64,000 nt of DNA from the NCBI RefSeq assembly GCF_000376565.1, contig NZ_BARG01000044.1, positions 124,001 through 188,000 on the forward strand, read 5' to 3'. The notes under the pieces are model-generated. The model saw nothing but the letters and a program-made list of their open reading frames with translations. It was not told the origin of the DNA and searched no databases. A program made the position numbers and the translations under genes. This document shows positions 41,165 through 58,702 of the stretch, piece after piece; position 1 is the first letter of the stretch, and every line of letters starts with the position of its first letter. The DNA comes from Streptomyces hokutonensis (GTDB lineage: Bacteria; Actinomycetota; Actinomycetes; Streptomycetales; Streptomycetaceae).

Positions 41165-41883
41165 TATCGCACCCGGACGCGTTCCCCGCCACGCCTCCTC
41201 CGGACCTCGATGATCCCGCGGTCATCGTTGCCCACGAGTGGCAGGCTTTCGATGAGCTGGTCCAGATGCAAGACCACTGGCAGCGCCCGGGATGGACTGC
41301 GGAGACCCGGGCCTACTACTGGCTGATCACCATCCCCGACGACCACACCTTCGTCGCCCACGCTCTGCGCAGTCAGCACTTCGTCCGCGATCTCGGAGTG
41401 TTCGATCTGATCGGCGTGGGGGACTTCCACCTCACGCTCGGTCGCATTGGTCGCACTGATGAAGTCGATGAGGACCAACTCAGGTATATCGCCGAGGCTG
41501 TTCAGGCCAGTGCGCCGCACACGTTCAAGCTGTCGGCCCTGCCCCTGACCGGATCCCGCGGAGCCCTGCGCTACAGCGTTGCTCCCTGGACTCCAGTCAT
41601 TTCTCTCCACCAGCTCCTGGTCGAGACGTCGGCCGGATGCGGCCTACCCCCCATGAAGAGCACCAGCAGGCTCAGACCGCACATTGGGATTGGCTACTGC
41701 CACACAGCGGGTCCGGCCGGCCCCGTCCATGCAGCTGTGAAGCCCCTCCGATCGTTGCCACCCATAGACCTGCTGGTCGATCGCATCGATCTTGTTGAAA
41801 TGCGACGTGAGTGTGCTTCCTACAAGTGGCGCGTCGTCCAGACCGTTCGGCTGCCACGCGCCGATGGCGTGGGACTCGCCTGA
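41152..41883 (+). CDS. 2H phosphoesterase (2'-5' RNA ligase-like)
   Basis: 243 residues from ATG (MAPLISHPDAFPA) with AGGAAGG twelve bases upstream, overlapping the regulator by 13 bases. The two motifs are GDFHLTLGRIG and LRPHIGIGYC, matching the paired HxT/S boxes although the second has Gly for Ser/Thr. Members cleave or join 2',3'-cyclic phosphates and 2'-5' links. Coupling to a regulator suggests a shared response. It ends convergent to the kdsB operon. Confidence 0.75.
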   Translation: MAPLISHPDAFPATPPPDLDDPAVIVAHEWQAFDELVQMQDHWQRPGWTAETRAYYWLITIPDDHTFVAHALRSQHFVRDLGVFDLIGVGDFHLTLGRIGRTDEVDEDQLRYIAEAVQASAPHTFKLSALPLTGSRGALRYSVAPWTPVISLHQLLVETSAGCGLPPMKSTSRLRPHIGIGYCHTAGPAGPVHAAVKPLRSLPPIDLLVDRIDLVEMRRECASYKWRVVQTVRLPRADGVGLA

Positions 41884-41989: not shown

Positions 41990-42796
41990 TCACTGCAGGC
42001 CGCCCGAGGCGGGGCAACCGCGGGTTCCGGCAGCGATCGCTCGGCTACGCAGGATTTTGAAGGCCCTTGCGAGATCCTCGGGAGTGTCAACGGCTACGCC
42101 CTCGTCCGTGACGGGAAGCATCCGAACGCCGTACCCGTTCTCGATGAAACGCAGCATCTCCACGCCCTCAGCCTTCTCCAAGGGCCCCTGAGGGAGCTGT
42201 TGGAATTGCCGGAGAGCCTCACCCGTGAAGCCGTAGAGGCCGAGTTGGCGCAGGTATGTGGGGCGGGTCCCTCGCGGGTAGGGGATCGGCTGGCGCGAGA
42301 ACATCAAGGCGCTGCCGCTCGTTCCCACCACGGTTTTGACGACGTTGTGGTCGAGCACGGCAGCGGCGTCGACCAGTTCCGTATAGGCGTTCACCGCGAG
42401 GTTGCCGGTGGTGAGGTGGTGCAGAGCGTCGGAGACGGCGTCGATCGCGGCCGGCGAGATGAATGGCTCGTCGCCCTGGACGTTGATGTAGCCGTCGGCG
42501 GACACACGCTCGGCGCACTCCGCGACGCGGTCGGTGCCGGTGAGATGTTCCCGGGTGCGCATGGACTCGATGCCCAGGCGGCGGCAGACGGCCTCGATGC
42601 GTGCGTCGTCGGTCGCGACCACCACGCCGTCGAGACGCGTGGCCTCCAAGCATCGCTGGTGCACGTGCCACAGCAGAGGTTTGTCCCCGAGCAGGGCCAA
42701 GGGTTTTCCGGGGAAGCGTGAGGCGCCCCACCGGCAGGGGATGACCGCGATGTGGCGGCGTACGGTGCGTGGTTGTGCTGGTGAGGCGGCGGACAT
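41990..42796 (-). CDS. kdsB: KdsB-like 3-deoxy-sugar-acid cytidylyltransferase
   Basis: 268 residues. Diagnostic KdsB features: AVIPCRWGASRFPGKPLA (CTP-binding loop), VVATDDARIEA, LTGTDRVAECAE, YINVQGDEPFI, LGLYGFTGEALRQF, PLEKAEGVEMLRF and AVDTPEDLARAF. The enzyme couples CMP from CTP to a Kdo-like sugar acid. Gram-positive bacteria have no Kdo lipopolysaccharide, so a role in a natural product or cell-surface sugar is likely. Last gene of a 14-gene minus-strand operon. Confidence 0.92.
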   Translation of the reverse strand: MSAASPAQPRTVRRHIAVIPCRWGASRFPGKPLALLGDKPLLWHVHQRCLEATRLDGVVVATDDARIEAVCRRLGIESMRTREHLTGTDRVAECAERVSADGYINVQGDEPFISPAAIDAVSDALHHLTTGNLAVNAYTELVDAAAVLDHNVVKTVVGTSGSALMFSRQPIPYPRGTRPTYLRQLGLYGFTGEALRQFQQLPQGPLEKAEGVEMLRFIENGYGVRMLPVTDEGVAVDTPEDLARAFKILRSRAIAAGTRGCPASGGLQ

Positions 42797-42823
42797 GGCA
42801 AATACCCCCGGTTGGTTGGCGTT

Positions 42824-43399
42824 TCAGGAACGTGCGGGACGTTGAAGGAGCGCGAGCTTGGCGCGGACGGTCGGTGACGCGGTCTCCTCAAACGGCCGCC
42901 AGTCGTAGCCGCTGACCTCTTCGGTCTGGAGTGTCACCGTGTGCTGCGCTGTGAGCCGGAAGGCGAATCGGAAGTCGATGTGCTGGTGCGCCGGTTCCTC
43001 TTTGGCGGGGTTGGCGTCGATGTCGTGCACGTCGATGTCGAGGGGAACCGTCTCGAACCCGGGGAGCGGGGCGACCGCGTGGTCGGGGAGGCCGGCTTCC
43101 TCGAAGAGTTCGCGGAGGGCGGCGTGGAGGAGGTCCTGGTCGCCCGGTTCGATGTGGCCGCCCGGCGCGAGGTACTTGCCGGTGGCGTTGTGATGGATGT
43201 GCAGCACGCGGTCGGCGGCGTCGAGGACGATGGCGCTGCACGTGACGTGAGCGGGGAACGTCTTGCGGTGCGCGGGGTCCTGCGGGCCGGCCAGAGCGGT
43301 GAACAGCGGGGCGAGCAGCTGCTGTTCGCCCGCGTTGCGGACGAGATACGCCTCGGCGGTCGCGCGGATGCGGTCGGGGGACGGCGGCACGAGGGTCAC
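42824..43399 (-). CDS. NUDIX hydrolase
   Basis: 191 residues, GTG overlapping the previous stop (GTGA). The box region GGHIEPGDQDLLHAAL then RELFEEAGL keeps the REL-x-EE-x-GL core but has a one-residue shift in its first half. HVTCSAIVLDAADRVLHIHH gives the N-terminal strand. Probably hydrolyses a nucleotide-sugar or related diphosphate intermediate of the operon. Confidence 0.85.
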   Translation of the reverse strand: MTLVPPSPDRIRATAEAYLVRNAGEQQLLAPLFTALAGPQDPAHRKTFPAHVTCSAIVLDAADRVLHIHHNATGKYLAPGGHIEPGDQDLLHAALRELFEEAGLPDHAVAPLPGFETVPLDIDVHDIDANPAKEEPAHQHIDFRFAFRLTAQHTVTLQTEEVSGYDWRPFEETASPTVRAKLALLQRPARS

Positions 43400-44517
43400 C
43401 TTTCGAAGTGGTCGAGCCAGATCCCGGCGATGGCCTGGCGGTCGGTGGTGGGCATGGTGTGCAGGCCGGGCTCGAAGAGTCCGTGGCTGAGGGCGGCGGT
43501 GGCGGCGAGGATCTCGGCCTGGACGAGGTGGATGTAGGTGCCGACGGCCGCTCCGTGGACGAAGTTGACGGCGCCGCCGTCGGCGAGCACGTAGAAGTAG
43601 TGACCGGTGATCTCGTAGCGCGTCAGCTGATCACCCACCGGTACGCGCTGGTAGAGGTCGTGGAGGGGCGCGAGTTCCAGCTCGTCTTCCGAGGAGGTCA
43701 CCGATGCGAGGTAGGCGCCGTTGCGCAGGGCGGCGAAGTCGTGCTGGCGCAGGGCGAGATTCCCGGTGGCGCACAGGACGAGTTCGGCGTCCCTGACCGC
43801 CTCGGTGGTGGTCGTGGTCGTACGGAAGCCGTGCGAGTGCGCCTGCACGCGCCGGATGGGGTCCCTGTCGTAGACCGTGACCCGCAGGTCGTGGGCGCGG
43901 AGGGTCTGCGCGATGGCGCGGCCGACCTTGCCGAAGCCCAGGACGCAGGCGTTGCGGCTGGTCAAAATGTCTCCGCGGGCGCGGACCAGAGCGTCGGTGG
44001 AGAAGACGATGGACTGGCCGACCAGGTGGTCTTCGCAGTCTTTGAGGGGTGAGCGGGCTACCGAGATAACGGGGCATCTGAGCTGGTCGAGTCCGGCGTA
44101 GCGCTGGTGGCCATTCTCCGTGTCCTCCACGACGCCCAGGACACGGCCGGAGAACTTCTCGACCACCGTGGCGAGGCTGGGTGCGAAGTAGCCGCCGATG
44201 TCCGCCAGGACGATGTCCTGGCCGCCCGCGGTCTCCTCGACGTACTCCAGCGCACGGGTGGGGTCGGCGAACAGGTCCCGGCTGAGTTCGTGGACGGGGT
44301 AGAGATCCCGGACCGTGTCCAGGGTTCGCTGGTTGATGGACTTGGGCTTGGGCAGGACGGCACCGATGGTCGAGGTCGCGGCCATGGCGCGCAGAAATGC
44401 CGGGCGTTCGGAGAGCAGGTGCGTGATGATCAGTGAGGTGATCGGGCCGGCGGCGGGGAATTGCTCGGTGATGCGCCGGAAGAAGGTGTCGAGTCGTGCT
44501 CGCTCGGGGCTCTCCAC
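43396..44517 (-). CDS. S-adenosylhomocysteine-hydrolase-like NAD enzyme
   Basis: 373 residues, shorter than true SahH (430-490). GTG start with AAGGAG eight bases upstream. Its Rossmann motif is ACVLGFGKVGRAIAQTLRAH, followed by VTVYDRDPIRRVQAHSHGF, LVLCATGNLALRQHDFAAL and YLASVTSSEDELEL, all as in the SahH NAD domain. The adenosine-recognition N-terminus is diverged (LPKPKSINQRTLDTV). In the angustmycin pathway a SahH-like enzyme acts on the sugar of a nucleoside, so redox-assisted sugar chemistry is plausible here. Confidence 0.82.
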   Translation of the reverse strand: MESPERARLDTFFRRITEQFPAAGPITSLIITHLLSERPAFLRAMAATSTIGAVLPKPKSINQRTLDTVRDLYPVHELSRDLFADPTRALEYVEETAGGQDIVLADIGGYFAPSLATVVEKFSGRVLGVVEDTENGHQRYAGLDQLRCPVISVARSPLKDCEDHLVGQSIVFSTDALVRARGDILTSRNACVLGFGKVGRAIAQTLRAHDLRVTVYDRDPIRRVQAHSHGFRTTTTTTEAVRDAELVLCATGNLALRQHDFAALRNGAYLASVTSSEDELELAPLHDLYQRVPVGDQLTRYEITGHYFYVLADGGAVNFVHGAAVGTYIHLVQAEILAATAALSHGLFEPGLHTMPTTDRQAIAGIWLDHFER

Positions 44518-44543
44518 AGCAACTCCTTCTGAATTCCCGCTTG

Positions 44544-45545
44544 TTAGGCGGCCTGCGCGCGCACAGTGGGCGCGGCGGTGAGGGTCTGCATGTGGGCGCG
44601 CATGCCGCTGTGGAGGTCGACCTGTGGCTGCCAGCCCAGAACCTCGTGGGCGCGACCGGGGTGAGCGCGGGTGGTGAGGACGTCACCGTGGCGGGGGCCG
44701 TCCTGAAGCATCTCGATGTCGCGGCCGACGAGGCTGTTGGCGATGTGGATCACTTCGAGGAGGGAGGCGTTCGCTCCTCCCCCTACGTTGATCACCCCGT
44801 TTGCGTGGGGTGCGGTGGCCGCAGCGATGGTGGCGGCGACCGCGTCGTCGATGTAGGTGAAGTCCCGGCGCTGGTGACCGTCGCCGTACAGGCGTAGGGG
44901 CTGGCCGGTCAGGGCGGCCAGCAGAGCGCGGTGGGTGAACATGTCGGTGCGCTGGCGGGGGCCGTACACGGTGAAGTAGCGCAGTGCGACGACGGTGGTG
45001 GGGCAGTGCGGTTGCGCGGCGTGGGCGAGGCAGAGCTGTTCCTCGGCGAGCTTGGTGACGGCGTACGGCGAGGCAGGCCGCGGCTGGTCGGTCTCGACGC
45101 TCGGTCCGCCGTCGGTGGAGCCGTACACGCTAGAGGAGGAGGCGACGACCAGGCGGGGAACGCGCAAGCGGAGGGCGGCGTCCAGCAAGCGCTTGGTGGC
45201 CACGATGTTGGAGGCAACGTACTCGCCGAACTGCGCTCCCCAGGAAGGACGGACGCCAGGGATGCCGGCGAGGTGGAAGACGGCGTCCGCATCGACGAGA
45301 AGGGGATCAATCGCACAGCCGATCAGATCGGCCGTGACGTTCATGTACCCGGGCAGCGACCGCAGAGGGGCAAGGTTGGCTGCGGCAGTCGGGTCGGCGG
45401 CCGGGTCACGGCGGTCGACGCCGATGACCGTGGTCCCGGCCTGGACGAGGGCGTGGGCGAGGTGGGAGCCGATGAAACCGGCGGCGCCGGTCACGACGGC
45501 ACGGCGCGGAAGTTGGGGGTGTTGAGGGCTCAACTGCTGTGTCAC
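44544..45545 (-). CDS. NAD-dependent sugar epimerase/dehydratase
   Basis: 333 residues, GTG with GGAGA eight bases upstream. Extended SDR: VVTGAAGFIGSHLAHALV for NAD, catalytic SSSSVYG Ser with YAVTK Tyr/Lys, RYFTVYGPRQR, and DFTYIDDAVAA typical of NDP-sugar 4-epimerases and uronate epimerases. It would act on a nucleotide sugar in the operon's pathway. Confidence 0.9.
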   Translation of the reverse strand: MTQQLSPQHPQLPRRAVVTGAAGFIGSHLAHALVQAGTTVIGVDRRDPAADPTAAANLAPLRSLPGYMNVTADLIGCAIDPLLVDADAVFHLAGIPGVRPSWGAQFGEYVASNIVATKRLLDAALRLRVPRLVVASSSSVYGSTDGGPSVETDQPRPASPYAVTKLAEEQLCLAHAAQPHCPTTVVALRYFTVYGPRQRTDMFTHRALLAALTGQPLRLYGDGHQRRDFTYIDDAVAATIAAATAPHANGVINVGGGANASLLEVIHIANSLVGRDIEMLQDGPRHGDVLTTRAHPGRAHEVLGWQPQVDLHSGMRAHMQTLTAAPTVRAQAA

Positions 45546-45578
45546 GGTGAGGTCTCCAGAAGCGGTGGGGTCGGCGGT

Positions 45579-46415
45579 TCAGCTCAGCCGGGCCAAGACG
45601 GTGCGGCCGTGGGCGGTGAGGGCGAGATCCTGCTGCTCGTATCCGCGGACGAGAGCGGTGACCGCCTCGATGGCACCGAAGGATTCGAGAAGGCGCTGCT
45701 CGGTGTCGTTGGGACGGCGGCCATAACCGGAGTAGAACGCGTCCCTAAGTTGGGGAGCCGCCTGCCAGCGGCGGAATTCGAGACGGGCGAAATCACGGAT
45801 GCGGGCATCGCGCCGCATGTGTTCCAGGTCGTACATGCCGAAGAACTCGCCGATGTTCCAGTTCCGCGGCTGGTAGTCGAGGTGACAGGCCGTACTGTCC
45901 ATGAGCGTGCCCGCCAGGATGTCCCGGTGGGCGGACAGCAGGAGACGCTCGACAGCGGAAATGAGGCCGGCCTCATCGGCCCGCTGGATCCAGCGGGCGA
46001 GACGGTTCGCCAGGTCGGGGCCGATGGCTCCGGAGCGCGGGATGAGGGTGGCCTGGTGGAGCAGGCGCAGGATGCGGCCCGCCTCGTAGTGGGCCAGTTC
46101 CTCCTCGGACGATCCCGGGGCGACGGTGTCGGCCGACGTGCCGGACAGCGCGGTCACCAGCAGCGTGCGTGTGGTGTCGTGGCTGCCGACCAGCTTGGGC
46201 ACGTGCCCGGTCAGGTGCGGCGCCCAGGTGCGGTAGGCGTGGACCTCCTGGAGGTACCGGGTCCTGCCGGTGTGCTGCTTGGCGAAGTATCTACGTCCCG
46301 TGCCGTCGGCAAGCTGGAGCAGGTGGGGCGGAAGGGATGGGTCCGGTATGACGCGGACGGCGCCAACCCGGTCGCGGGCCAGTTCCAGGCGCGGATCGGC
46401 GGGGGCCGTGATCAC
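45579..46415 (-). CDS. Phosphotransferase-fold kinase-like protein
   Basis: 278 residues from GTG (VITAPADPRLEL), overlapping the upstream stop (GTGA). N-lobe Lys in RRYFAKQHTG. The catalytic loop is STACHLDYQPRNWNIG, with Leu in place of Gly of HGD; metal Asp in GMYDLEHMRRD. Similar to small-molecule kinases. A second kinase-like protein lies at 47071. Confidence 0.78.
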   Translation of the reverse strand: MITAPADPRLELARDRVGAVRVIPDPSLPPHLLQLADGTGRRYFAKQHTGRTRYLQEVHAYRTWAPHLTGHVPKLVGSHDTTRTLLVTALSGTSADTVAPGSSEEELAHYEAGRILRLLHQATLIPRSGAIGPDLANRLARWIQRADEAGLISAVERLLLSAHRDILAGTLMDSTACHLDYQPRNWNIGEFFGMYDLEHMRRDARIRDFARLEFRRWQAAPQLRDAFYSGYGRRPNDTEQRLLESFGAIEAVTALVRGYEQQDLALTAHGRTVLARLS

Positions 46416-47068
46416 GAGGCAGCCTCCTGCGCCGGGAGGGCCTGGTGGGAGGTGTCGTTGTGCCGGTCGAGGATCCACCGCCTCTGGTCGAGGCGGTTGC
46501 GGTGGTGCTGCCAGCAGGTGATGGAGGCGTGGGTGATGGTGAAGCCCGCCGGGGAGCCGGGCGGGAGGCCCAGGAGCAGGGTGTGGGCGGCGATCACGGT
46601 CTCGCCGTGCGCGGCGAACAGGACGCGGTCGCCCTCGTGTTCGTCGATGAGCTGTGCCAGGTGGGCGCCGGCCCGTTCCAGGTAGCCGTTCCAGGTGTCG
46701 GAGCCCAGCGCCCAGGGCGTGTCGGGGTGGGCGTGGGGGCCGCCGTTGGCGGCGGTCTTCACCTCGGCCCAAGGTCGGCCGTCGGCGTCGCCGTGGACAG
46801 GGCCGTCGAGCCGGGTGTCCGTGGTGAGCGGGATCCGGAGGGCCTGGCTGATGATCTCGCCGGTCTGGCGCAGGCGCAGGCGCGGTCCGGCGTACAGCGC
46901 GTCGAACGACCTGTCGCGGTGTTCGTCGGCGAGCCGGCGGGTGACCTGTGCCACCTGGGCGTAGCCGCGGTTGGTCAGTCCGGTGCAGCTCCGAGGTCCT
47001 CCGACTAGGCCGTCGGCGTTGCACTGGGCCTCGCCGTGGCGGACGAAGACGAGTTCGGTGGCGATCAT
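46412..47068 (-). CDS. Histidine-phosphatase-superfamily protein
   Basis: 218 residues, ATG. Phosphohistidine motif LVFVRHGEAQCNADG, second catalytic His in VLFAAHGETVIAAH, and YAGPRLRLRQTGEI. Phosphoglycerate-mutase-like fold, probably a phosphatase acting on a sugar or nucleotide phosphate. GTGA overlap with the kinase-like gene downstream. Confidence 0.88.
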   Translation of the reverse strand: MIATELVFVRHGEAQCNADGLVGGPRSCTGLTNRGYAQVAQVTRRLADEHRDRSFDALYAGPRLRLRQTGEIISQALRIPLTTDTRLDGPVHGDADGRPWAEVKTAANGGPHAHPDTPWALGSDTWNGYLERAGAHLAQLIDEHEGDRVLFAAHGETVIAAHTLLLGLPPGSPAGFTITHASITCWQHHRNRLDQRRWILDRHNDTSHQALPAQEAAS

Positions 47069-47070
47069 GC

Positions 47071-47829
47071 TCAACCTCGGAGTCGGGGGTAGGCGGGGGG
47101 CCAGCCGTAGCTGTAGCCGTGACGCCCGATGTAGGGGGCGGTCAGGACGGCGTGCAGGGCGAGGAAGTCGTCGAGGCGGTGGCGGTCCGTGACCCCCAGA
47201 CGGGTGTCGTGGTGTCCGGCGGCCTCGTTGTAGGCGTCCAGGGCTGCGCCGACAGCCAGTTCGGGGAGCGGCCCGTAGGTCAGCAGCAGCGTGGCAATCA
47301 GCTTCGCGAGGTCGTACGCCATCGGCGCGAGGGTGAGGTCGTCGGTGTCGACAGTGACGACGTCCCCGGCCGGCGTGATGAGAAAGTTGCGGGGGTTGCT
47401 GTCCTTGTAGAAGGCGGTAGGCCCCTCCGCAGTCTTCTCCAACAGCGCCAACACCGCGTGCAGAGCGGCCTTGTTGGGCAAGTAGCCCTGCTCCAGGCGG
47501 CGTTGGAGGGCGGTCCGGCGGGGAGTGAGGTAGTCGGCGAAGGCGGTGCCGTCCTCGAAGCGGTGCGGTACGGCCAGGTCGGCGGCGTGCAAATCGCTCT
47601 CCCAGGCACTTCCGTGGGCATGGCCGAGCAGCGTGGCCAGCGCGGGCAGGTCGTCCGGCTGAACCGAGCGGCCCTCGATCCGCCGGTAGGTCAGGCTGCC
47701 CGTCCCGATCACCACGAACGCCGGCAGCCGCATTGGGCGCGCGTGTTCGGTGAGCCACCAGTGGTGGCGGACGGCCGCGCCGACCTGAGCGGGCGTCGCG
47801 TAGAACTTGGTGAACTGCTCCTTCGTCAT
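47071..47829 (-). CDS. Kinase-like phosphotransferase
   Basis: 252 residues, ATGA overlap with the methyltransferase stop. Putative catalytic loop AFYKDSNPRNFLIT and metal site VVTVDTDDLTLAPMAYDLAK resemble APH/HSK-type kinases with Lys-Asp in place of His-Gly-Asp. It sits between the phosphatase and methyltransferase genes. Substrate unknown. Confidence 0.7.
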   Translation of the reverse strand: MTKEQFTKFYATPAQVGAAVRHHWWLTEHARPMRLPAFVVIGTGSLTYRRIEGRSVQPDDLPALATLLGHAHGSAWESDLHAADLAVPHRFEDGTAFADYLTPRRTALQRRLEQGYLPNKAALHAVLALLEKTAEGPTAFYKDSNPRNFLITPAGDVVTVDTDDLTLAPMAYDLAKLIATLLLTYGPLPELAVGAALDAYNEAAGHHDTRLGVTDRHRLDDFLALHAVLTAPYIGRHGYSYGWPPAYPRLRG

Positions 47830-48671
47830 GCCCGGGCCTCCCGAGGGCGGGCCACGACGAACGTGATGACGGACCCGGTCGTCAGCGGCCGGTCCGGCAC
47901 GAACTCGTGCAGCACGGCAGCCAGGGCGTCCGGCTGGCCGTACAGGCCCGGGGCGAGGTCGTACTTCGGGTTGGTGGCCACGTACTCGGCGACGTGGTCG
48001 AGGCTGTCGAAGGTGAAGACGTGCTCCTCGTTCTCAACGCTTACTACGTCGAGCGACGTGGAGGCTAGCGCGGCGAGGTTCCCGCTGTGCGCCGAGACGT
48101 ACAGGCTCTCGTGTCGCTCGGCGCGAGGGTCGAGGCCCGCGGCGGTGACCAGCTGGTCCAGCTCCCGGTAGCTGTCGAGGCTCTTGGTGACCAGCACGGC
48201 CAGCCCGCCGGGGGCGAGGACCCGGTTGATCTCCGCGATCACCGTTTCCGGGCGCGAGGAGTGGTAGAGGCAGAACGCGGCCACCGCCAGGTCGCACGAG
48301 GCGGTGGGCAGGGGCAGGTGATGGAAGTCGCCCTGGAGGAAGCTCACCTGCCCGCCCGGCAGATGGCGGGTCCGCTCGCGGGCCTGCCCGATCAGGGCCG
48401 GGGCCGCGTCGAGACCGACGACCCGCTGAGGGCGCAGCAACGTGGCCAGCACCGCGCTGCTCGTGCCACGACCGCAGCCGATGTCCAGGGCCACACCGAG
48501 ACGGCCGGCGCGCACGTGATGGGCCCGCACCAGCTCGACGATCGTGTCCGGAACGGGCCGGCCCGCGGTCTTGGCCCGCATCAGAGCGTTGGACCGGCCG
48601 GCGAGCCGGGACGCGTCGCCGTACAGCTCCGTCTGCCGTTCGGGGTCGAGGAACGGATTGATGACGCTCAT
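47826..48671 (-). CDS. Class I SAM-dependent methyltransferase
   Basis: 281 residues from ATG (MSVINPFLDPER). Motif I VALDIGCGRGTSSAVLATLL, motif II VVGLDAAPALIGQARER, GDFHHLPLPTASCDLAVAAF and APGGLAVLVTKSL are typical UbiE/Methyltransf_11 features. It may methylate the product or an intermediate. Follows the adenylate-kinase-like gene by 31 bases. Confidence 0.9.
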   Translation of the reverse strand: MSVINPFLDPERQTELYGDASRLAGRSNALMRAKTAGRPVPDTIVELVRAHHVRAGRLGVALDIGCGRGTSSAVLATLLRPQRVVGLDAAPALIGQARERTRHLPGGQVSFLQGDFHHLPLPTASCDLAVAAFCLYHSSRPETVIAEINRVLAPGGLAVLVTKSLDSYRELDQLVTAAGLDPRAERHESLYVSAHSGNLAALASTSLDVVSVENEEHVFTFDSLDHVAEYVATNPKYDLAPGLYGQPDALAAVLHEFVPDRPLTTGSVITFVVARPREARA

Positions 48672-48702
48672 GCCGGACCCTCCCGCCAAGGGCGCGGACG
48701 GC

Positions 48703-49215
48703 TCAGCGGTGCTCGGCGGCCACCGTCTCCAGCCAGCGGCGCGTCTGGCGCCGGTTGGCCAGCAACACCACGTCGGCCCGGCCGGAGGCGAACTCCTCGA
48801 TCTTGGCCATGACCCGCGGGCGCATCTTGCGGCGGTACGTCGCCACGTACTGGATCACACCCCAGTGAATGCGGTTGTGCACCCCGTTGCCCTTGTGCCC
48901 GGCCCCGTGCCTCAGCTGCCGCGAGAAGATCCCGTACAGCGCGGAGATCGTGGACACGTCCATAAGCACCACGGTGTCGCAGGCTTCGAGCCGGGTCTGG
49001 AGCGTCGAGTTGTAGTTGCCGTCGATCACCCACCGCGGCTGCGCGACCAGCTCCCGCTGCAGCTCGGTGAACTTCTCCATGGGTAGCGGGGTCCATTCGT
49101 CGTCGTAGAACGCGGCGTCCAGGTGCGTCACCGGGGCGTCGAGGATCTTCCCCAGCGCTCGGGCCAGATAGGACTTGCCGCTGCCTCCGCAGCCGACGAT
49201 TGCGACCTTCTCCAT
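48703..49215 (-). CDS. P-loop kinase, adenylate-kinase/topology-modulation-like
   Basis: 170 residues. Walker A VAIVGCGGSGKSYLARAL, then THLDAAFYDDEWTPL and WVIDGNYNSTLQTRLEACD, the signatures of FlaR/'topology modulation' proteins, a branch of adenylate-kinase-like NTPases of unsure substrate. In this operon a nucleotide or sugar kinase role is likely. A 96-bp gap with a palindrome precedes it, the only sizeable break in the operon. Confidence 0.85.
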   Translation of the reverse strand: MEKVAIVGCGGSGKSYLARALGKILDAPVTHLDAAFYDDEWTPLPMEKFTELQRELVAQPRWVIDGNYNSTLQTRLEACDTVVLMDVSTISALYGIFSRQLRHGAGHKGNGVHNRIHWGVIQYVATYRRKMRPRVMAKIEEFASGRADVVLLANRRQTRRWLETVAAEHR

Positions 49216-49234
49216 GGTGCTCCAGCCTAGAGTC

Positions 49235-49250
49235 GCTCGGGCGCCCGAGC
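49235..49250. promoter_or_regulatory. 16-bp perfect palindrome in operon gap
   Basis: GCTCGGGCGCCCGAGC lies 20 bases upstream of the kinase start at 49215, inside the only large gap of the operon. It may be an operator for an internal promoter or an attenuating hairpin. Confidence 0.45.
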
Positions 49251-49311
49251 GGGCCGGCCGCCAGAACGCATTCGGATGATCCGGGCACGGTGGCCCGGGT
49301 GGTCTGTCGCA

Positions 49312-50361
49312 TCATGCCGCTCCTCGCTCGGCCGAGGGGGCGACGAGTGTGTTCAGCACGCTCTCCAGGGCGTCGACCTGCCTGCTCAGCCGGAACAGAT
49401 CCAGGTGGTCCAGACAGGACGCGATCAGCTCCTCGTGCTGCTGGCCGCCGGCGATCTGCCTAAGGAAGGCGAGGCGCTCGATCGCCTCCCGACCGGAGGA
49501 CACGATCAGCTCGGCAGGCACGAACTGCTCGACGTGGAGGATGTCGGCCGGCGCCAGCGGCAGGCAGCCGGCCAGTACCGCTTCGAAGATCCGCTGGGTC
49601 ATCTGCCCGACGACGGTGTACCGCTCGGGCAGCATCAGGACGGTGGCCAGGGACCTGCTGTACAGCTCGTGGACTTGAGGGAAGGGGATCCGGCCGAGGA
49701 AGCGGACCTGCGGCCAGCGCTCGGTCCGGGTCCACTTGCCGCCGACCTGGTGCGCGACGTGGGCGGCGGCCGGGGCGAAGTAACGGTCGAAGTGGTGGTC
49801 GCGGTCGTACTGATTGCCCACATAGCCGAGGTCGAGATCGCGGGGTGTCGCGGCCAGCGCGAGCGGATCTGCCTGATCCAGGAGCCGGTCGCTGACCGGG
49901 AAGAGCAGGCGGTGCGCGCCGGGCGAGAGGGCGAGGGCTGCTTCGCACACGGCGGTCCGCGGTGCGCGGCGCCATATGCTGTCGATCCGCAGGGTGCGGT
50001 CCTTGTCCCAGATCACGGTCGGCGTGCCGCGCCGTACGGCGTAGTGCATGAGGAGTTCGCCCTGGCGGTGCAGGTCGCAGGTGTGCCCCTCGGTACCGCA
50101 CGCGCTGGTGTTGCGTCCGCTGATCAGCCAGCGCCACTCCAGGAACAGGACATCGATCTCCGGAAGGCCGTTGTCGAAGACGTAGGCACCGCCGAGGTCG
50201 TCTCCTGCTTCGAGCAGGTCGCGGTTGGCCTGGAGGAAGACAAGTTCGTGCCCACGGTCGCGGAGGGCGTCGATGAAGGGGCGGCGGTGGCTGCGGCCCC
50301 CGTCCGGCGTGTCAGTGATCCCGTTGCCGAGGAACCCCCAGAAGCTGTATCCGATCCTCAT
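49312..50361 (-). CDS. CgeB-like GT-B glycosyltransferase
   Basis: 349 residues from ATG (MRIGYSFWGFLGN); ATGA overlap with the carbamoyltransferase stop. The C-terminal half is informative: LGYVGNQYDRDHHFDRYF, VRFLGRIPFPQVHELYSRS and RIFEAVLAGCLPLAPAD resemble the nucleotide-sugar-binding domain of CgeB-type glycosyltransferases, with Glu in the EAVLAGCLP acceptor loop. It probably transfers a sugar in the pathway. Confidence 0.75.
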   Translation of the reverse strand: MRIGYSFWGFLGNGITDTPDGGRSHRRPFIDALRDRGHELVFLQANRDLLEAGDDLGGAYVFDNGLPEIDVLFLEWRWLISGRNTSACGTEGHTCDLHRQGELLMHYAVRRGTPTVIWDKDRTLRIDSIWRRAPRTAVCEAALALSPGAHRLLFPVSDRLLDQADPLALAATPRDLDLGYVGNQYDRDHHFDRYFAPAAAHVAHQVGGKWTRTERWPQVRFLGRIPFPQVHELYSRSLATVLMLPERYTVVGQMTQRIFEAVLAGCLPLAPADILHVEQFVPAELIVSSGREAIERLAFLRQIAGGQQHEELIASCLDHLDLFRLSRQVDALESVLNTLVAPSAERGAA

Positions 50362-52076
50362 TTGGTGATCCACCGGCCTTCCAGCAGCAGAGCGTCCAGG
50401 CCGGAGCCGGTCAGGCAGTCCAGGGCCATGGCCGGTGTCCCGCAGATCGGCTTTCCCTTGACGTTGAGCGAGGTGTTGATCAGCACCGGGACCCCGGTTC
50501 GGCGGGCAAAGGCGGTCAGCACCGCATGCATGAACGGATTCTGTTCAGCGGTCACGGTCTGCAGACGGGAGGTGCCGTTGGCGTGGACGATGGCCGACAC
50601 CCGCTCGCGCGCGGTGTCCGTGACGCCGGATGCCATCGACATATAGGGCGCCTCCTGGCCGAGGGTGAAAAACTCCTCGGCGCGCGCGGCCAGGACCATT
50701 GGGGCGAAGGGCCTAAACGGCTCCCGGAACTTCACGGTCGCGTTCAGCCGCTCCACCACTCCCGGCTCAAGGGGCGAGGCGAGAATGGAGCGGTTGCCCA
50801 GGGCACGGGGGCCGGCTTCCACCCGGCCCTGGAACAAGCCGACGATCATGCCGTGGGCGAGCTGGTCGGCGAGGAACTCGGCCGTCTCGATCCCCAGCAT
50901 CTTCTGCTGCAGCCCGGGCCACGCGGTGAGGTCGAGGGGCTGGTCCTCAAAGGACGGCCCGAGGTAGCAGCTTCGCGCGATGCCCGACAACGGACGCTGG
51001 TTGCCGCTGTCGATGTGCACGGCGACCGCGGCACCGACCGCCGTGCCGGCGTCACCGGGGGCAGGCGGCACGAAGACGTCGTCGAAGATGCCGGCCTCGA
51101 TGATCCGGCCGATGCTCACGCAGTTCGTGGCGACCCCGCCACCCGCGCACAGCCGGCGCGAGCCGGTGAGCAACCTTGCTCGGCGGGCCAGGTGCAGCAT
51201 GACCTGCTCGGTGCGCTCCTGGAGGGCTGCCGCCAGGTCCTGATGTACATACGCGACCGGCTCGGCCACATGGCGCGCAGGACACGTCTCGGCGAGGAAG
51301 CGACGCGAGGTGCGCGGGTAGCCGGAGGACAGCGTGCGCGGGGGGAAATAGGAGGGGTCGACGTAGAAGCCACTCGGTGTGGTGCGGACGGCGCGTGCGA
51401 AGAGATGCCGGAACCGTTTCGGGTCGCCGAGGGCGGCGAGCGCCATCACGGTGCCTTCCTCATCACCGCGGCGCCATCCCAGATGCTCGGTGACCGCGCC
51501 GTACACGTAGCCCAGCGAGGCCGGGTCGTTGAGGGATTCCAGGGTGCGGTTGCTCGGGCGCAGCGCGTTGTGGCCGTGGGCGATGGTGGTGGTCTGCCGT
51601 TCGCCGAGGCTGTCGACGACCAGCACCGCGGACTCCGTCCACCCCGACCATGCGAAGGCCGCCAGCTGGTGGGCCCGGTGGTGCAGGACCGGCATCACGC
51701 GGGCGGAGGGGAACAACCGACCCAGGGCGCCGACGCGCCGCTGGGTACGCAGCCCGACCTTGGCGAACCCGTGGGCCCTGGGCAGCGCCCGCTCGCGGGT
51801 CGTCGCCGACAGCGCCAGACGCAGCGCGGCCGGGGACTCCACCAGGTAGTGAGCGGGCTGGAAGTTGTAGGCGACGGCGTCTACATCGCCGGGGGTGAGT
51901 CCGGCTTCCTTCAGCAGCCAGTCGACCGCGTGCTGCGGGAACGCCTTGGTGTGTTTGTCCTCGGACAGGCGCTCTTCCTCGACGAATCCGACCAGCTCCC
52001 CCTCGACCAGCAGGGCGGCGGACGAGTCATGAGTGTAGGAGCACAGACCGAGGATGACGGAAGGGGTGTGGTCCAT
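50358..52076 (-). CDS. NodU/CmcH/TobZ-family O-carbamoyltransferase
   Basis: 572 residues. ATG at 52076 is chosen because AGGTGA lies eight bases upstream; a GTG at 52088 overlaps the previous stop. The Kae1-like N-terminal domain has ILGLCSYTHDSSAALL, VLHHRAHQLAAFAWSG, VVDSLGERQTTTI and LCAGGGVATNC. The C-terminal YrdC-like part has QGRVEAGPRALGNRSILA, FRPFAPMVL and PVLINTSLNVKGKPI. It makes carbamoyl adenylate from carbamoyl phosphate and ATP and carbamoylates a hydroxyl. Located next to the TS-like gene. Confidence 0.93.
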   Translation of the reverse strand: MDHTPSVILGLCSYTHDSSAALLVEGELVGFVEEERLSEDKHTKAFPQHAVDWLLKEAGLTPGDVDAVAYNFQPAHYLVESPAALRLALSATTRERALPRAHGFAKVGLRTQRRVGALGRLFPSARVMPVLHHRAHQLAAFAWSGWTESAVLVVDSLGERQTTTIAHGHNALRPSNRTLESLNDPASLGYVYGAVTEHLGWRRGDEEGTVMALAALGDPKRFRHLFARAVRTTPSGFYVDPSYFPPRTLSSGYPRTSRRFLAETCPARHVAEPVAYVHQDLAAALQERTEQVMLHLARRARLLTGSRRLCAGGGVATNCVSIGRIIEAGIFDDVFVPPAPGDAGTAVGAAVAVHIDSGNQRPLSGIARSCYLGPSFEDQPLDLTAWPGLQQKMLGIETAEFLADQLAHGMIVGLFQGRVEAGPRALGNRSILASPLEPGVVERLNATVKFREPFRPFAPMVLAARAEEFFTLGQEAPYMSMASGVTDTARERVSAIVHANGTSRLQTVTAEQNPFMHAVLTAFARRTGVPVLINTSLNVKGKPICGTPAMALDCLTGSGLDALLLEGRWITK

Positions 52077-52084
52077 GGCGGTTG

Positions 52085-53041
52085 TCACCTGGCCCCGGCT
52101 GTGGTGCGCGCGGACGAGGAGGCGGCGCGGCGGTTCAGTTCCTGGTACCAGGACGTCAGCGCTGGGCCGAGAGGGCCGTCGACCTGTTCCGCTTGGCGCC
52201 ACGCCGTGTCGCGCAGGTTGATCTTCCACAACTGGTAGCTGCGCATCGTGGCGGTCATGGCGTCCCAACCTGGATGCCCGGTGAGGTCCAGGGCCTGCAC
52301 GTGCCGGAGCAGTTCGTCGAAGCCTTCCCAGGGCGTGCGCAGGTCGGGCATGACCTCGCTCGCGGTGAGCGAGGTGAGCTGCTCGGCCTGGTCGAGATGG
52401 TCTTCGTAGATGTGCAGGGACCCGACGTGGTGGTGGAAGTTGCCGAGCTCGGCGCCCAGCCACCCGGCGACCAGCTCGTGCAGGACCGTGTAGAAGAACA
52501 GGTCGTACGGCATGCCGACCCACGCGTCCTGGCCGCGCATGGAGGTCGTCATATGGAGGTGGCCGGCGCGAAGGCGGAAGCCGAAACCGAGCGTGCAGGG
52601 CACATCCTTGTGCCCGGCCGCGTCCAGAGCCGGGTCGTACAGCTGGATCAGAGCCCGGCGCGAGTCGGCATCCTCCGTGAGGATTTCGACGACGCGGCGC
52701 AACTGGTCGACCTTCCCTGCCCAGTTCCGCATCCGTGGCCCGTACGCACCGCGCAGGACACCGTCATCGGCGTACTTCCTTAACCGGCCGTTGTAGTTAA
52801 ATATCCAGTCGGCGTCCGAGCCGGAGAGGTGCCAGACGGTCTCGGCCACCGCGAACGCCGGATTGAGGATCCTCGACGGCGGCGCAGACAGCAGACGGGC
52901 CCGGGGCTGGGTCAGCAGCATGTGGACATCGAAGACCTCGCGGGTCGCCATGCCGCGCGGTGCGACCTTCACACCGTTCTTCGCCAGGGCGACGGCCCCG
53001 GCGAAGAGTTCGGCGACGCTGTCGCCGGTCAACTGGGTCAT
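52085..53041 (-). CDS. Thymidylate-synthase-family enzyme, probable CMP/dCMP hydroxymethylase
   Basis: 318 residues. TS landmarks: VAPRGMATREVF (phosphate loop), LRGAYGPRMRNW, Arg128-Arg129 (DSRRALI), catalytic Cys149 in KDVPCT, Arg169 and Asp172 (MRGQDAW), His210 and Tyr212 (LHIYEDH). The uracil-reading Asn of ThyA is Asp180 (VGMPYDL), the replacement seen in T4 dCMP hydroxymethylase and in cytosine-specific relatives such as MilA. So a 5-hydroxymethyl-cytosine nucleotide product is more likely than dTMP. Its position inside a biosynthetic operon also argues against a housekeeping role. ATGA overlap with the upstream gene. Confidence 0.87.
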   Translation of the reverse strand: MTQLTGDSVAELFAGAVALAKNGVKVAPRGMATREVFDVHMLLTQPRARLLSAPPSRILNPAFAVAETVWHLSGSDADWIFNYNGRLRKYADDGVLRGAYGPRMRNWAGKVDQLRRVVEILTEDADSRRALIQLYDPALDAAGHKDVPCTLGFGFRLRAGHLHMTTSMRGQDAWVGMPYDLFFYTVLHELVAGWLGAELGNFHHHVGSLHIYEDHLDQAEQLTSLTASEVMPDLRTPWEGFDELLRHVQALDLTGHPGWDAMTATMRSYQLWKINLRDTAWRQAEQVDGPLGPALTSWYQELNRRAASSSARTTAGAR

Positions 53042-54879
53042 CGGGCACGGACTCCTTCTCCCTGCGCCTGCGTGCGATCAGCGCCGGGGGCATCGTGGTG
53101 GACGGGGGCAGGGCGCGCGACGGTGTCGGCGCGGCCGAGGATGAGGTGTGCGATGTCGGCAGCGCTGTTGCCGCGCCACCGGCACACCGCATCCGGCACC
53201 GTCAAGTCGGTGGACTGGCCGGGCCGGGCCAGGGCGGAGAGAACGTCGGCGACCTCCTCGGCACTGGTGCAGCGCGAGGCGAGGCCGTGGTCGGCCAGAC
53301 CGAGGGTGCGCTCGCCGGCCGCGCCGATTTCGAGGACCGTCACGTTCAGGAGGGCCGCCTCGATACCGCAGGTCGAGTACGCGCTGGCCAGAGCATCGGC
53401 ACCGGCAAAGCACCCCCGTGCACCGACTTGCAGGTCGGCCACGGCCACGAGCGGTCCATCGTTCTGCCGGGTCAGGGCGGAGAACGCGTCGGCGCTCTGC
53501 GCGGGGTGGGGGGCGATGACGAGTCCCCAGTCGCCGTCGGCTCTACGGAGTCCGTCCATGAGCACGTTGGCCTGGGCGCGGAGTCGGTCAGGACCGAAGG
53601 GCTGACAGGCCCAGACCGCGATCCGCTCGGGCTGTCTCCCTGCGGTGGAGGCCATCAGCCGTGCCAGATAGCGCCGTTGGGCCTCGGGGTCGAGATGAGC
53701 CAGGCCGTCGAAGCGAGGCTGGCCCAGGACGTGGACCTCGGCGTCGGGATGCCGCGCCCAGGCGTTCGCGAGGGCGACGTCGCGTTCTCCCATGACGACG
53801 ATGTGACGGCTGTGCAGCGCGGGCCAGGCAACGGCCTCTGCCGTCCACGCACCGTGCTGAACGTGCACCGTGCTGATGCCGTGGCGCTCAGCCGCGTGCA
53901 CGGCGAGCGCTCCCAGCGGGCTGGTGTCGTTGCTGACCAGCAGAGTGTGCGGCCGGGCCGAGGCAAGGACATCGTCCAACCAGGCTTCCGCTTCCACGAC
54001 GGAGCGCCACGACGGCTGGGTGCAACCCCCGCTTGTCTCCATCAGCACCGACAAGAGCTGGAGCAGCCGGTCCAGCAGGACCGTGTGCTCCTTCACCCGC
54101 ACGCCGCCGCCGTCCGTCGTCCGAAGCGCTTCCACGGCACTGCTCAGCCCGAAGAGTCCAGCCGGCGGCGAGCACAGCCCCACGTCCTCGGAATCTGGAG
54201 CCGGACTCCGCTCCGCCGCATCGGTGGCGAGGTCGATCAGAAGGGTCCTTCGCCCGTCACGTGCGAGCACGTCGAGCACGGGGAGCAGAGTGGCCGCGTG
54301 ACGAGAGGACCATGACAGCGCCACCACGTCACTGCTCAAGTCCCCTAAGACAGCCGAGGCACCAGCAGCCACCTGAGGAGCGGGAAGGGTGCGCAATGGC
54401 GCGGAGCGCAGCGGGTTGTGCGGGGCTGCCGCGCCCAGCACGAAGGCCACACCGGACCAGCTGACGGTGTAGGACCGGTACTCTCGCGAACTGCTCGACC
54501 GCACCCCGACGAGCCCCTCGTACGGCGCGAGTGCCATCGGTCCCGGGGCCGTCGCGAACGGTTCCCAGGCGCTGAGCGCTAAGAGCTTGCGTACCAGCTG
54601 CGCGACCAGGCGCCGGGCCGGCACATGCTGCACATGGAGCCAACCCGCACCGCCCTGTGTCGTCACGAGGTGCGCGCCGTGCGTCTCAAGGGCACCCATG
54701 ATCCGGTCGACGTGTTCGTCCACCTCGCCCGAATTCAGTGGCAGAGCCTCCAGGTCCCGAGTGGTGATCTGCTCCGTCCGCATGTGGGCGAGAGAGCCCT
54801 CTCCTACCAAAGCCCACAACGACTGGCCCGTGGCACCGGTCTGCACGAGGCCGAGTGCGCTGTGCCCAACTGCCCTCAC
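53038..54879 (-). CDS. Large capsule/Kdo-transferase-like glycosyltransferase
   Basis: 613 residues from GTG (VRAVGHSALGLVQ), overlapping the HAD stop (GTGA). The C-terminal 350 residues show GT-B features similar to capsule polysaccharide and CDP-glycerol-type transferases: GISTVHVQHGAWTAEAVAWP, HIVVMGERDVALANAW, VHVLGQPRFDGLAHL, IAPHPAQSADAF and STCGIEAALLNVTVLEIGAA. The N-terminal half is unassigned. With KdsB in the same operon, transfer of a CMP-linked sugar acid is a reasonable guess. Confidence 0.7.
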   Translation of the reverse strand: MRAVGHSALGLVQTGATGQSLWALVGEGSLAHMRTEQITTRDLEALPLNSGEVDEHVDRIMGALETHGAHLVTTQGGAGWLHVQHVPARRLVAQLVRKLLALSAWEPFATAPGPMALAPYEGLVGVRSSSSREYRSYTVSWSGVAFVLGAAAPHNPLRSAPLRTLPAPQVAAGASAVLGDLSSDVVALSWSSRHAATLLPVLDVLARDGRRTLLIDLATDAAERSPAPDSEDVGLCSPPAGLFGLSSAVEALRTTDGGGVRVKEHTVLLDRLLQLLSVLMETSGGCTQPSWRSVVEAEAWLDDVLASARPHTLLVSNDTSPLGALAVHAAERHGISTVHVQHGAWTAEAVAWPALHSRHIVVMGERDVALANAWARHPDAEVHVLGQPRFDGLAHLDPEAQRRYLARLMASTAGRQPERIAVWACQPFGPDRLRAQANVLMDGLRRADGDWGLVIAPHPAQSADAFSALTRQNDGPLVAVADLQVGARGCFAGADALASAYSTCGIEAALLNVTVLEIGAAGERTLGLADHGLASRCTSAEEVADVLSALARPGQSTDLTVPDAVCRWRGNSAADIAHLILGRADTVARPAPVHHDAPGADRTQAQGEGVRAR

Positions 54880-55595
54880 ACCAGGCCCCCTTCGATAAAC
54901 GGGGCCGGAGAGGCGGTGACGTCGAGCAGGTGTAACAGTTCCCTGGGAGATTCAGCGACCACGGTGGAGGGACCAATCGGAGCCCCGTACCCCCAACCCG
55001 CATGGATATAGGGGACGCCGGCTCGGTGGGCGGTCTCCTGGTCGACCGCCATGTCGCCGACGTATGTCGCCTTGGCCGGATCGGTGCCGAGCTCGATCAA
55101 GGCGAGCAGGATCGGGTCCGGCGCCGGCTTACCGCGCCCCGGCCCGTCGGGCCCGCGAACCACGGCGAACGGGCAGCCCAGCTCCGAGAGAAGAGGCGTT
55201 GCCCGGAGCAGCGGCTTGGACGTGACGACCCCGAGCGACCAGCCGGCAGCAGCGACGGCGAGCAGCACGTCCGTGATGCCATCGAACACTCGGGCCAGGT
55301 GGGCCACGGCAGTTGACGTTTCCGTGTATGTCCGGTGAATCGCCTCGGCGTTGGCCAGGCCGAGACGTTCCATGATGACGTCGAAGGGGCGGCCGAGATG
55401 CTCCTGGTACGCCGTGAATGGCACGTCGAGACCATGGGTCGCCTGCACCGCGTGCCACGCGCTCTCCATCACGGGAAGTGTGTCGACGAGGACCCCGTCC
55501 AAGTCGAGGAGCAGGCTGCGCGGTGCCTCGGAGTCGGCGTCGGACTTGCTCTCCGTCGCGGTGGACGGAGTAGGGAGAGGTAGCTGAGGGGGCAT
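54876..55595 (-). CDS. HAD-family phosphatase (PGP/Gph-like)
   Basis: 239 residues from ATG (MPPQLPLPTPSTAT) with GGAG upstream. HAD motifs: I LLLDLDGVLVDTLP, II SLGVVTSKP, III and IV GKPAPDPILLALI and YVGDMAVDQETAHRAGVPY. Probably removes phosphate from a sugar or nucleotide intermediate, possibly Kdo-8-phosphate-like. First gene of the 14-gene operon, 38 bases after the HATPase stop. Confidence 0.88.
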   Translation of the reverse strand: MPPQLPLPTPSTATESKSDADSEAPRSLLLDLDGVLVDTLPVMESAWHAVQATHGLDVPFTAYQEHLGRPFDVIMERLGLANAEAIHRTYTETSTAVAHLARVFDGITDVLLAVAAAGWSLGVVTSKPLLRATPLLSELGCPFAVVRGPDGPGRGKPAPDPILLALIELGTDPAKATYVGDMAVDQETAHRAGVPYIHAGWGYGAPIGPSTVVAESPRELLHLLDVTASPAPFIEGGLV

Positions 55596-56122: not shown

Positions 56123-56398
56123 GCCCGGCTCCTGACGGCGCGTCCCTGGGGGGAACGGTGGCTCCCAGCCCTCTTTCGCCCCTGAGACCGCGGTAGCGGT
56201 TGTCGAGGCCCCGGGATAGGTTCTGGCGTCGGCACCAGACGTGTGGCTGGTCTTCACCGGATTTCCTCCCGGGCAAAGGCAGATGGTGGTTTCGTTGACC
56301 TTGAGCGAACCGTGAATGACGACGGGTTGGTATCCCCGACCAGTCCTCGATGCCGTCAAACCCGTCAAAGATTGTTCTCTTGTGAACGGGGACGCAGG
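56123..56398. promoter_or_regulatory. Divergent control region at operon head
   Basis: 276 bp between the HATPase gene (minus) and an XRE-TPR gene (plus). It contains two GTCAAA repeats at ten-base spacing and GTTC-TCTTGT-GAAC immediately before the plus-strand start. Promoters for both transcripts, including the 14-gene operon, probably lie here. Confidence 0.5.
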
Positions 56399-58674: not shown

Positions 58675-58702
58675 ATTCCGCCCACCAACAGAGGTCAGAC
58701 TC

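Follow-up and report, generated by a model that had tools for sequence, protein, structure and literature searches.

A 64,000-nt window of Streptomyces hokutonensis (GCF_000376565.1, contig NZ_BARG01000044.1, positions 124,001-188,000), the whole stretch of DNA analysed here, carries a 14-gene operon that we propose makes a small, sugar-decorated 5-hydroxymethylcytosine nucleotide or nucleoside, combining a phage-like glycosylation set with carbamoylation, methylation and phosphorylation. We give this reading a probability of about 0.5, and we think that the end product is a small molecule and not DNA. The gene content, order and coupling, the cytosine-selecting residue of a thymidylate synthase (TS)-type enzyme and the predicted folds are direct observations; the class of the product is what we infer.

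All 14 open reading frames (ORFs) lie on the minus strand within 41990-55595, as a first-pass annotation of this DNA had described. At the 13 junctions, neighbouring genes overlap by 4 bases in seven cases and by 16 bases in one, and the other five pairs are separated by 13-96 bases. The gene identities guessed earlier also held: Pfam cut-offs were passed for HAD_2, thymidylate synthase, carbamoyltransferase (N- and C-terminal domains), Glyco_trans_1_2, methyltransferase, two APH, histidine phosphatase, epimerase, the AdoHcyase nicotinamide adenine dinucleotide (NAD) domain, NUDIX and CTP_transf_3. The P-loop kinase matched the NCBIfam model 'DNA topology modulation protein' (NF005994) below its cut-off, and the large glycosyltransferase (GT) was recognised from its predicted structure. 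Likewise, the proposed carbamoylation and nucleotide trimming are matched by carbamoyltransferase, kinase and phosphatase genes, and the proposed activation of a sugar with cytidine monophosphate (CMP) is supported by a KdsB-type CMP-sugar synthase (NCBIfam and 1gq9). The genome is of 11.8 Mb in 178 contigs with a completeness of 99.9, and the nearest relatives of the operon are in Streptomyces.

A TS alignment of 13 rows was scanned against one genome each of 84,980 species, giving 98 relatives, of which the best 80 were kept. These loci were picked by TS alone and the genes of the window were then mapped onto them. TS, the carbamoyltransferase CarbT and the CgeB-like glycosyltransferase CgeBGT are consecutive in 79 of the 80 loci, with the P-loop kinase next in 75. 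Gene order follows the window in 58 and starts with the epimerase in 22; no locus has any other order. Besides Streptomyces, the range of hosts takes in Nonomuraea, Nocardia, Micromonospora, Frankia and Glycomyces as well as a bin of Solirubrobacterales. The conserved unit is a nine-gene core found across Actinomycetota, joined by two add-ons, one of HAD phosphatase, large GT and KdsB (K) and one of SahH and NUDIX (S). In the 70 loci with full reach for counting add-ons, GT, HAD, KdsB and SahH occur together in 34, none of the four in 22, and the first three without SahH in 6; six more have only GT and HAD, one lacks only KdsB and one has only GT. Across all 80, the large GT is present in 48, HAD in 47 of these and KdsB in 40, and neither HAD nor KdsB occurs without GT. 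SahH was found in 36, every one with GT except a rearranged Asanoa locus (L100); NUDIX relatives may escape at the threshold of 1e-5. On a quick TS tree the K label needs three changes, the S label six and the epimerase-first order one (L114, which has no HAD match, was counted as core-only). The fourteen families, first taken as one set, are thus conserved as a unit that is actually a core plus two add-ons.

The core has gaps. In otherwise whole operons with full reach, the methyltransferase is missing from L106 and L132, and the histidine phosphatase and APH-fold kinase 1 from L121, L137 and L139; L114, L115 and L117 lack all three. In L060, L061, L074, L096, L099 and L105 downstream genes are missing even though the contig continues, and these loci look truncated or rearranged. 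L060, L099 and L100 are apparent operon remnants that end inside or just after CgeBGT; in L100, CarbT is split into two ORFs and a 450-aa ORF is a shortened CgeBGT running into SahH. Streptomyces tanashiensis JCM 4086 has two copies of the operon (L067 and L068), neither with a SahH or NUDIX match.

In scans of further genomes, the independent scatter of homologues named earlier as the refuting outcome was not seen. A genus sample of 199 genomes has core-type TS (E <=1e-80) in 19 and CgeBGT (E <=1e-20) in 19; 18 of the 19 are common to both, each with the two genes on one contig within a few kb. The unshared genomes have a truncated TS alone (G152) and a weak CgeBGT fragment only (G054). At a looser E of 1e-20, TS matches rise to 41 of 199 genomes, and the extra 22 carry other TS-like genes, none with a CgeBGT match. 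In a class-level sample of 394 genomes, core-type TS (E <=1e-90) was found in nine, the window genome included, and CarbT adjoins TS in all eight other loci (L140-L147, short stretches). Eight weaker TS loci from this sample (L148-L155, also short) include two with CgeBGT beside TS (L149 and L153); a longer stretch around L154 (L170) has a gene like nucleoside diphosphate kinase (NDK) near TS and no CgeBGT match. Close relatives of SahH in the genus sample form two groups, one at 72-82% identity (13 genomes besides the window's) and one at about 55-60%. The first group (L033-L045) keeps the gene order in all 13 loci, with all fourteen genes in nine; L042 is cut by a contig end, and L043-L045 miss one or two genes within the stretch fetched. 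In the second group, all seven loci inspected (L046-L052) have a SahH-NUDIX pair without other operon genes.

The best solved relatives of the TS-type enzyme are entries for MilA (5b6d, E 4.7e-39), the CMP 5-hydroxymethylase of mildiomycin (5b6d/5jnh; PMC5175136). The two have in common the catalytic Cys, the Glu and the cytosine-marking Asp. Cys149, Glu67, Asp180, His210 and Tyr212 are invariant in all 81 alignment rows, and Asp180 is at the cytosine-selecting site, for which the MilA paper describes Asp186 as common to cytosine users (PMC5175136). Cytosine is therefore well supported by these residues as the substrate base. The sugar is less clear-cut: the exchanges A176S/K133R are described as shifting MilA from CMP to deoxycytidine monophosphate (dCMP) (PMC5175136), and here the site of Lys133 is Arg in 81/81 rows and that of Ala176 is Gly or Ser, so that the ribose-favouring pair of MilA is absent from all 81. 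Gly occupies the second site in 47/47 window-type rows, and Ser in 22/22 epimerase-first rows, in 8/9 rows of the group L104/L106-L113 (mostly Streptosporangiaceae; L106 is Glycomyces) and in 3/3 rows of L114, L115 and L117. The triad of Arg, Ser and Asp, as in T4-type dCMP hydroxymethylase, is found in 33 of the 34 rows outside the window type, whereas the window has Arg, Gly and Asp. We consider it likely that TS enzymes of the other core operons use dCMP, and the window type may use CMP or dCMP. The earlier description of the pathway as cytidine-based is consequently sound for the cytosine nucleotide, and 'cytidine' may have to read 'deoxycytidine'.

The predicted structure of CgeBGT (predicted local distance difference test, pLDDT, 91.3) was matched best, in a second look at the best 1000 Foldseek chains, by T4 beta-glucosyltransferase (BGT; 1qkj; Z 23.0, root-mean-square deviation 3.2, 298 aligned). 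BshA followed (6n1x, Z 22.0), with other enzymes of the GT-B fold close and T4 alpha-glucosyltransferase (AGT) at 19.8. Its viral Foldseek matches include a 'DNA beta-glucosyltransferase' at rank 9, and an EWRW motif is invariant in 11 aligned rows. We propose that CgeBGT is a hydroxymethylcytosine glycosyltransferase. In actinobacterial sequences Cys92, His97, Cys99 and His102 are also invariant (45 rows), a possible metal site that the phage CgeBGT of L157 keeps only in part.

A search of annotated phages gave no match to CgeBGT, and its phage relatives came from IMG/VR only, which was scanned with two CgeBGT alignments. Five independent phage contigs carry such relatives: L157, L221 (apparently identical to L223), L224, L225 and L226. 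A further relative is in L156, which is actinobacterial and, by eye, includes phage genes. Each of the five phage contigs has a P-loop-kinase-like gene no more than 0.7 kb upstream of CgeBGT; this gene passes the Pfam cut-off in L221 and L226, scores below it in L224 and L225 and was recognised by eye, without a Pfam match, in L157. TS lies within 6 kb in three (L157, L221 and L226), each with Arg, Ser and Asp, and polymerase III alpha-like ORFs are nearby in four (tblastn and by eye). A uridine diphosphate (UDP)-galactopyranose mutase was recognised by Pfam in two of the contigs (L221 and L226) and RGP in a third (L224); an ORF of L225 resembles the RGP ORF of L224 by eye, and the L157 contig ends too early to judge. 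We read this setting as phage DNA modification, which would tie the enzyme to hydroxymethylcytosine. It is a context that the first-pass annotation overlooked.

T4 provides the background for gene roles in hydroxymethylcytosine glycosylation. The same proposed functions, a TS-type hydroxymethylase, a nucleotide kinase and a GT-B transferase, appear in T4-type phage glycosylation as described for the arabinosyl-hydroxymethylcytosine of RB69 (PMC6024577). The present operon differs in being cellular and in having, besides these functions, a carbamoyltransferase, APH kinases, phosphatases and regulators. When 10 of the 14 operon proteins were compared with PHROGs, TS, CarbT and HAD were matched and the P-loop kinase weakly so; the same number given to PADLOC (2023 library) produced no anti-phage defence match.

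TS and CgeBGT also pair outside this operon. A second actinobacterial operon type (L169, 7297-13291) encodes CgeBGT (54%), TS (38%), NDK (PF00334), an RNase_T exonuclease, a PCMT-like protein and, by eye and with no Pfam match, a radical-SAM-like ORF; L156 (2925-9017) has a similar set by eye. The TS of both has the CMP-type combination, Lys plus either Ala or Gly. TS and CgeBGT are therefore found together more than once, with tailoring genes that differ.

The nearest solved relatives of CarbT are the antibiotic-tailoring enzymes decarbamoylnovobiocin carbamoyltransferase, GdmN and TobZ. Its matches in annotated phages are mostly from cyanophages, at 27-32% identity among the 20 matches listed. 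A carbamoyltransferase of a viral metagenome contig is described as acting on the hydroxymethyl group of 5-hydroxymethylcytosine in DNA and lies beside a cytosine-specific TS (PMC8670742), as CarbT does; the solved relatives of CarbT, by contrast, are the antibiotic-tailoring enzymes. For the gene first called simply an epimerase, the assignment stood and could be refined: its closest solved relative is MoeE5 of moenomycin synthesis (6kv9, E 1.4e-69), and no NCBIfam epimerase model scored over cut-off. MoeE5 we take to be a UDP-glucuronate 4-epimerase; the rest of the operon is presumably not a moenomycin set.

The add-on enzymes are less conventional members of their families. The large GT (pLDDT 83.6) has no Pfam match above cut-off; on its model it is a GT-B enzyme nearest to UDP-N-acetylglucosamine (UDP-GlcNAc) 2-epimerases. 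These and MurG match residues 182-589 (best Z 19.6), TagF is among its Foldseek matches, and residues 1-181 were hardly covered by structure matching. The sialyl- or Kdo (3-deoxy-D-manno-octulosonate)-transferase that might have been expected was not among the 50 matches listed, which does not exclude it. KdsB passes the cut-off of its subfamily model (NF003952), with two stricter kdsB equivalog models below cut-off, and shares the RxGxxRxPGK and QGDEP signatures with KdsB-type CMP-Kdo synthases (1gq9, E 3.1e-49). Unlike those enzymes, it has no KdsA partner: PF00793 has no match in the window genome. Therefore, the acid that it activates is probably something other than Kdo from the customary pathway, and a standard CMP-Kdo route is unlikely. 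One NeuB-type synthase is encoded on another contig.

SahH resembles S-adenosylhomocysteine hydrolase (SAHase) in its NAD domain and ribose-binding Lys and Asp. It keeps Glu131, Lys159 and Asp163, the last two in 37/37 clade A rows. The catalytic His residues of SAHase, which we take to be 301 and 353 (rat numbering), are both replaced: the aligned positions hold Ser275 and Val325 in 37/37 clade A and 7/7 clade B rows. Hydrolysis of S-adenosylhomocysteine by SahH is therefore unlikely. The stand-alone type of SahH (E under 1e-110) occurs in 21 of the 199 genus genomes, and in the SahH-NUDIX pairs (e.g. L046, 3443-5119) SahH is 57-59% and NUDIX 41-50% identical to those of the window.

These assignments suggest a route. 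TS would hydroxymethylate CMP or dCMP at C5, a step well supported by homology and residues. The epimerase would, from its homology, convert UDP-glucuronate to UDP-galacturonate, and CgeBGT would place galacturonate on the hydroxymethyl group, as T4 BGT acts on DNA. CarbT and the methyltransferase may then decorate the sugar or the base. The P-loop kinase and the two APH kinases would phosphorylate intermediates that the histidine phosphatase trims, steps that perhaps render the compound non-toxic within the cell. The form of the operon found in Streptomyces would also use HAD, KdsB and the large GT to add a CMP-activated acidic sugar, and SahH and NUDIX could oxidise a ribose carbon and cleave a pyrophosphate.

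Several points weigh against this route. Because BshA and other GT-B enzymes are close, and T4 BGT itself is described as resembling many GT-B enzymes (PMC6024577), the fold alone is no proof of the acceptor of CgeBGT. TS was not found within reach in two of the five phage contigs (L224 and L225). The target hydroxyl of CarbT is ambiguous because the viral-metagenome carbamoyltransferase uses the hydroxymethyl group (PMC8670742), and CarbT and CgeBGT could compete for it. The donor sugar of CgeBGT is a prediction from homology only, the window TS combines Gly170 with Arg128, a mixed pair at the sugar-selecting sites, and the operon encodes no transporter. Relatives of the phage kinases and UDP-sugar mutases were not found in the 80 loci by tblastn (1e-4; L157 and L221 sequences); therefore, other families supply these functions where they exist. 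The dCMP-type pair of Arg and Ser, present in most TS rows outside the window type as in phages L157, L221 and L226, speaks for deoxycytidine and for the main rival, chromosomal DNA modification.

According to that rival, the core supplies hydroxymethyl-dCTP for incorporation into DNA of the chromosome, a plasmid or a prophage, where it is then glycosylated or carbamoylated in the manner of T4-like phages. The position of the CgeBGT relatives in phage replication cassettes and the reported action of the viral-metagenome carbamoyltransferase on DNA (PMC8670742) also speak for it. Yet the same tblastn search gave no match in the 80 loci to phage polymerase, dCMP deaminase or MazG, although divergent forms may be missed, and the window TS type has Gly and not Ser (47/47). 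The kinases, phosphatases and regulators of the NsdA family, which has a role in specialised metabolism, point away from DNA as well, and we know of no function for APH kinases, KdsB or SAHase-like genes in phage cassettes. We regard DNA hypermodification as unlikely, while taking it seriously. A nucleoside antibiotic of the mildiomycin/gougerotin type, for which free hydroxymethylcytosine would be released from hydroxymethyl-CMP and the nucleoside reassembled on a uronic acid, is improbable. That family combines enzyme classes such as the MilA-like TS, uronate-type epimerase and GT found here, but the MilB-type nucleosidase (PF05014) of the mildiomycin cluster is absent from the operon, with one partial match over cut-off elsewhere, on another contig, and no aminotransferase, peptide ligase or transporter is among the operon domains. 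Least likely is a surface glycan or glycolipid, in which KdsB, the epimerase and two GTs would build an envelope polymer decorated by TS and CarbT: the fold of the large GT near UDP-GlcNAc 2-epimerase, MurG and TagF and a NeuB-type synthase that could feed KdsB are in its favour, but the operon has no flippase, polymerase or lipid-linked step, TS acts on nucleotides, and 22 of the 70 full-reach loci lack both KdsB and the large GT while retaining TS, CarbT and CgeBGT.

If the hydroxymethylcytosine nucleotide route is correct, the enzyme logic by which phages hide their DNA runs as a cellular pathway in many Actinomycetota, and CgeB-type enzymes with the EWRW motif form a family of hydroxymethylcytosine glycosyltransferases that is new. 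The route would also indicate a class of compound of which we know no member, and would account for the strict operon order. More tentatively, Actinobacteria may share with phages, or have taken from them, a set for hydroxymethylcytosine glycosylation that serves as a widespread chromosomal route to a glycosylated, carbamoylated (deoxy)cytidine nucleotide, either as a new class of nucleotide antibiotic or antiviral or as sugar-modified genomic cytosine. The earlier statement that no characterised cluster has this gene set agrees with the open PMC literature, in which we found no described operon of this kind, only work on MilA, mildiomycin, bacimethrin and phages; MIBiG was not covered, and 'undescribed' is not proven. 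In the phage literature, Shewanella phage Thanatos is described as carrying a pentose on the base without a hydroxymethyl bridge (PMC12838424).

Table 1. Genes of the operon and its flanks, in window coordinates
Feature	Coordinates	Strand	Basis or occurrence
XRE1, NsdA-family HTH-TPR (helix-turn-helix, tetratricopeptide repeat) regulator	39758..41164	+	NF053720, 120 bits (cut-off 75)
LigT/2H phosphoesterase after XRE1 (putative start)	41113..41883	+	2_5_RNA_ligase2; with XRE1 in 4/80 loci
CMP-ulosonate synthase, KdsB type (add-on K)	41990..42796	-	NF003952, 247.8 bits (cut-off 193)
NUDIX hydrolase (add-on S)	42824..43399	-	PF00293
SAHase-like NAD oxidoreductase, SahH (add-on S)	43396..44517	-	PF00670
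NDP-sugar (nucleoside diphosphate-sugar) epimerase (core)	44544..45545	-	6kv9 MoeE5, E 1.4e-69
APH-fold kinase 1, APH1 (core)	45579..46415	-	PF01636, 44.5 bits
Histidine phosphatase, HisPhos (core)	46412..47074	-	PF00300, E 4.3e-27
APH-fold kinase 2 (core)	47071..47829	-	PF01636, 32.0 bits (cut-off 23.2)
S-adenosylmethionine (SAM) methyltransferase, MT (core)	47826..48689	-	Methyltransf_11
P-loop kinase, proposed nucleoside monophosphate kinase (core)	48703..49215	-	NF005994, E 2e-44, 151.7 bits (below cut-off 215)
CgeB-like glycosyltransferase CgeBGT, proposed hydroxymethylcytosine glycosyltransferase (core)	49312..50373	-	PF13524; model
O-carbamoyltransferase, CarbT (core)	50358..52088	-	PF02543 and PF16861
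TS-type cytosine-nucleotide hydroxymethylase, predicted (core)	52085..53041	-	MilA 5b6d, E 4.7e-39
Large GT-B fold enzyme, 613 aa (add-on K)	53038..54879	-	Predicted structure
HAD phosphatase (add-on K)	54876..55595	-	HAD_2; in 47/48 loci with large GT
Gene 0, HATPase_c_2 (RsbW-like) protein, 162 aa	55634..56122	-	PF13581, 41.3 bits (cut-off 27.4)
XRE2, NsdA-family, divergent from operon (true start may be downstream)	56243..57784	+	NF053720, 400.6 bits (cut-off 75)
TrmO-like protein	57860..58345	+	PF01980; 13/80 loci
XRE3, HTH regulator (true start may be downstream)	58472..59944	+	HTH_31; 20/80 loci

The operon is flanked by XRE-TPR regulators, as first described, and NCBIfam places both XRE1 and XRE2 in the NsdA family. 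An XRE1 relative adjoins the operon in L102, L114, L115 and L117, and XRE2 is matched in 24 of the 80 loci, several at only 26-31% identity. The initial list of 14 genes was right as far as it went; it passed over the HATPase_c_2 gene, which ends 38 bases upstream of the HAD start, and the LigT-like and TrmO-like genes. A HATPase_c_2-like gene (family F4) occurs in 9/80 loci, and in the four inspected (L060, L061, L067 and L099) it lies 5' of HAD or GT. In several Streptomyces, WbqC, DUF218 and HTH genes (families F17, F8 and F9; 5-6 loci) are beside the operon, e.g. at L061 1475-3996, and ORFs similar to them by eye lie near the SahH-NUDIX pairs of L049 and L051.

On plasmids, the matches listed for SahH and TS were all below 60% identity, and none of the seven stretches opened held the operon. 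SahH matches occur in 40 Lactiplantibacillus plasmid records; in one from Lactiplantibacillus plantarum (L053, 8794-11986), a SAHase-like gene (30%) is beside a phosphohydrolase (HD just below cut-off) and an MFS transporter. Plasmids of Geobacillus (L056, 8489-19802) and Streptococcus salivarius (L054, 12505-23286) have in common a cluster of QueA-like, TS, AAA ATPase, PqqD, CYTH and ABC-transporter genes, together with phosphotransferase and NUDIX-type genes, in an order unlike that of the window operon. The TS gene of a Sinorhizobium plasmid (L059, 1894-15601) has in its neighbourhood several genes with TIR domains, one for a methyltransferase and one with a nucleotide kinase domain. A Streptomyces microflavus plasmid (L058, 11932-14183) carries TS, methyltransferase and nucleoside 2-deoxyribosyltransferase genes in tandem, a set that presumably resembles that of bacimethrin.

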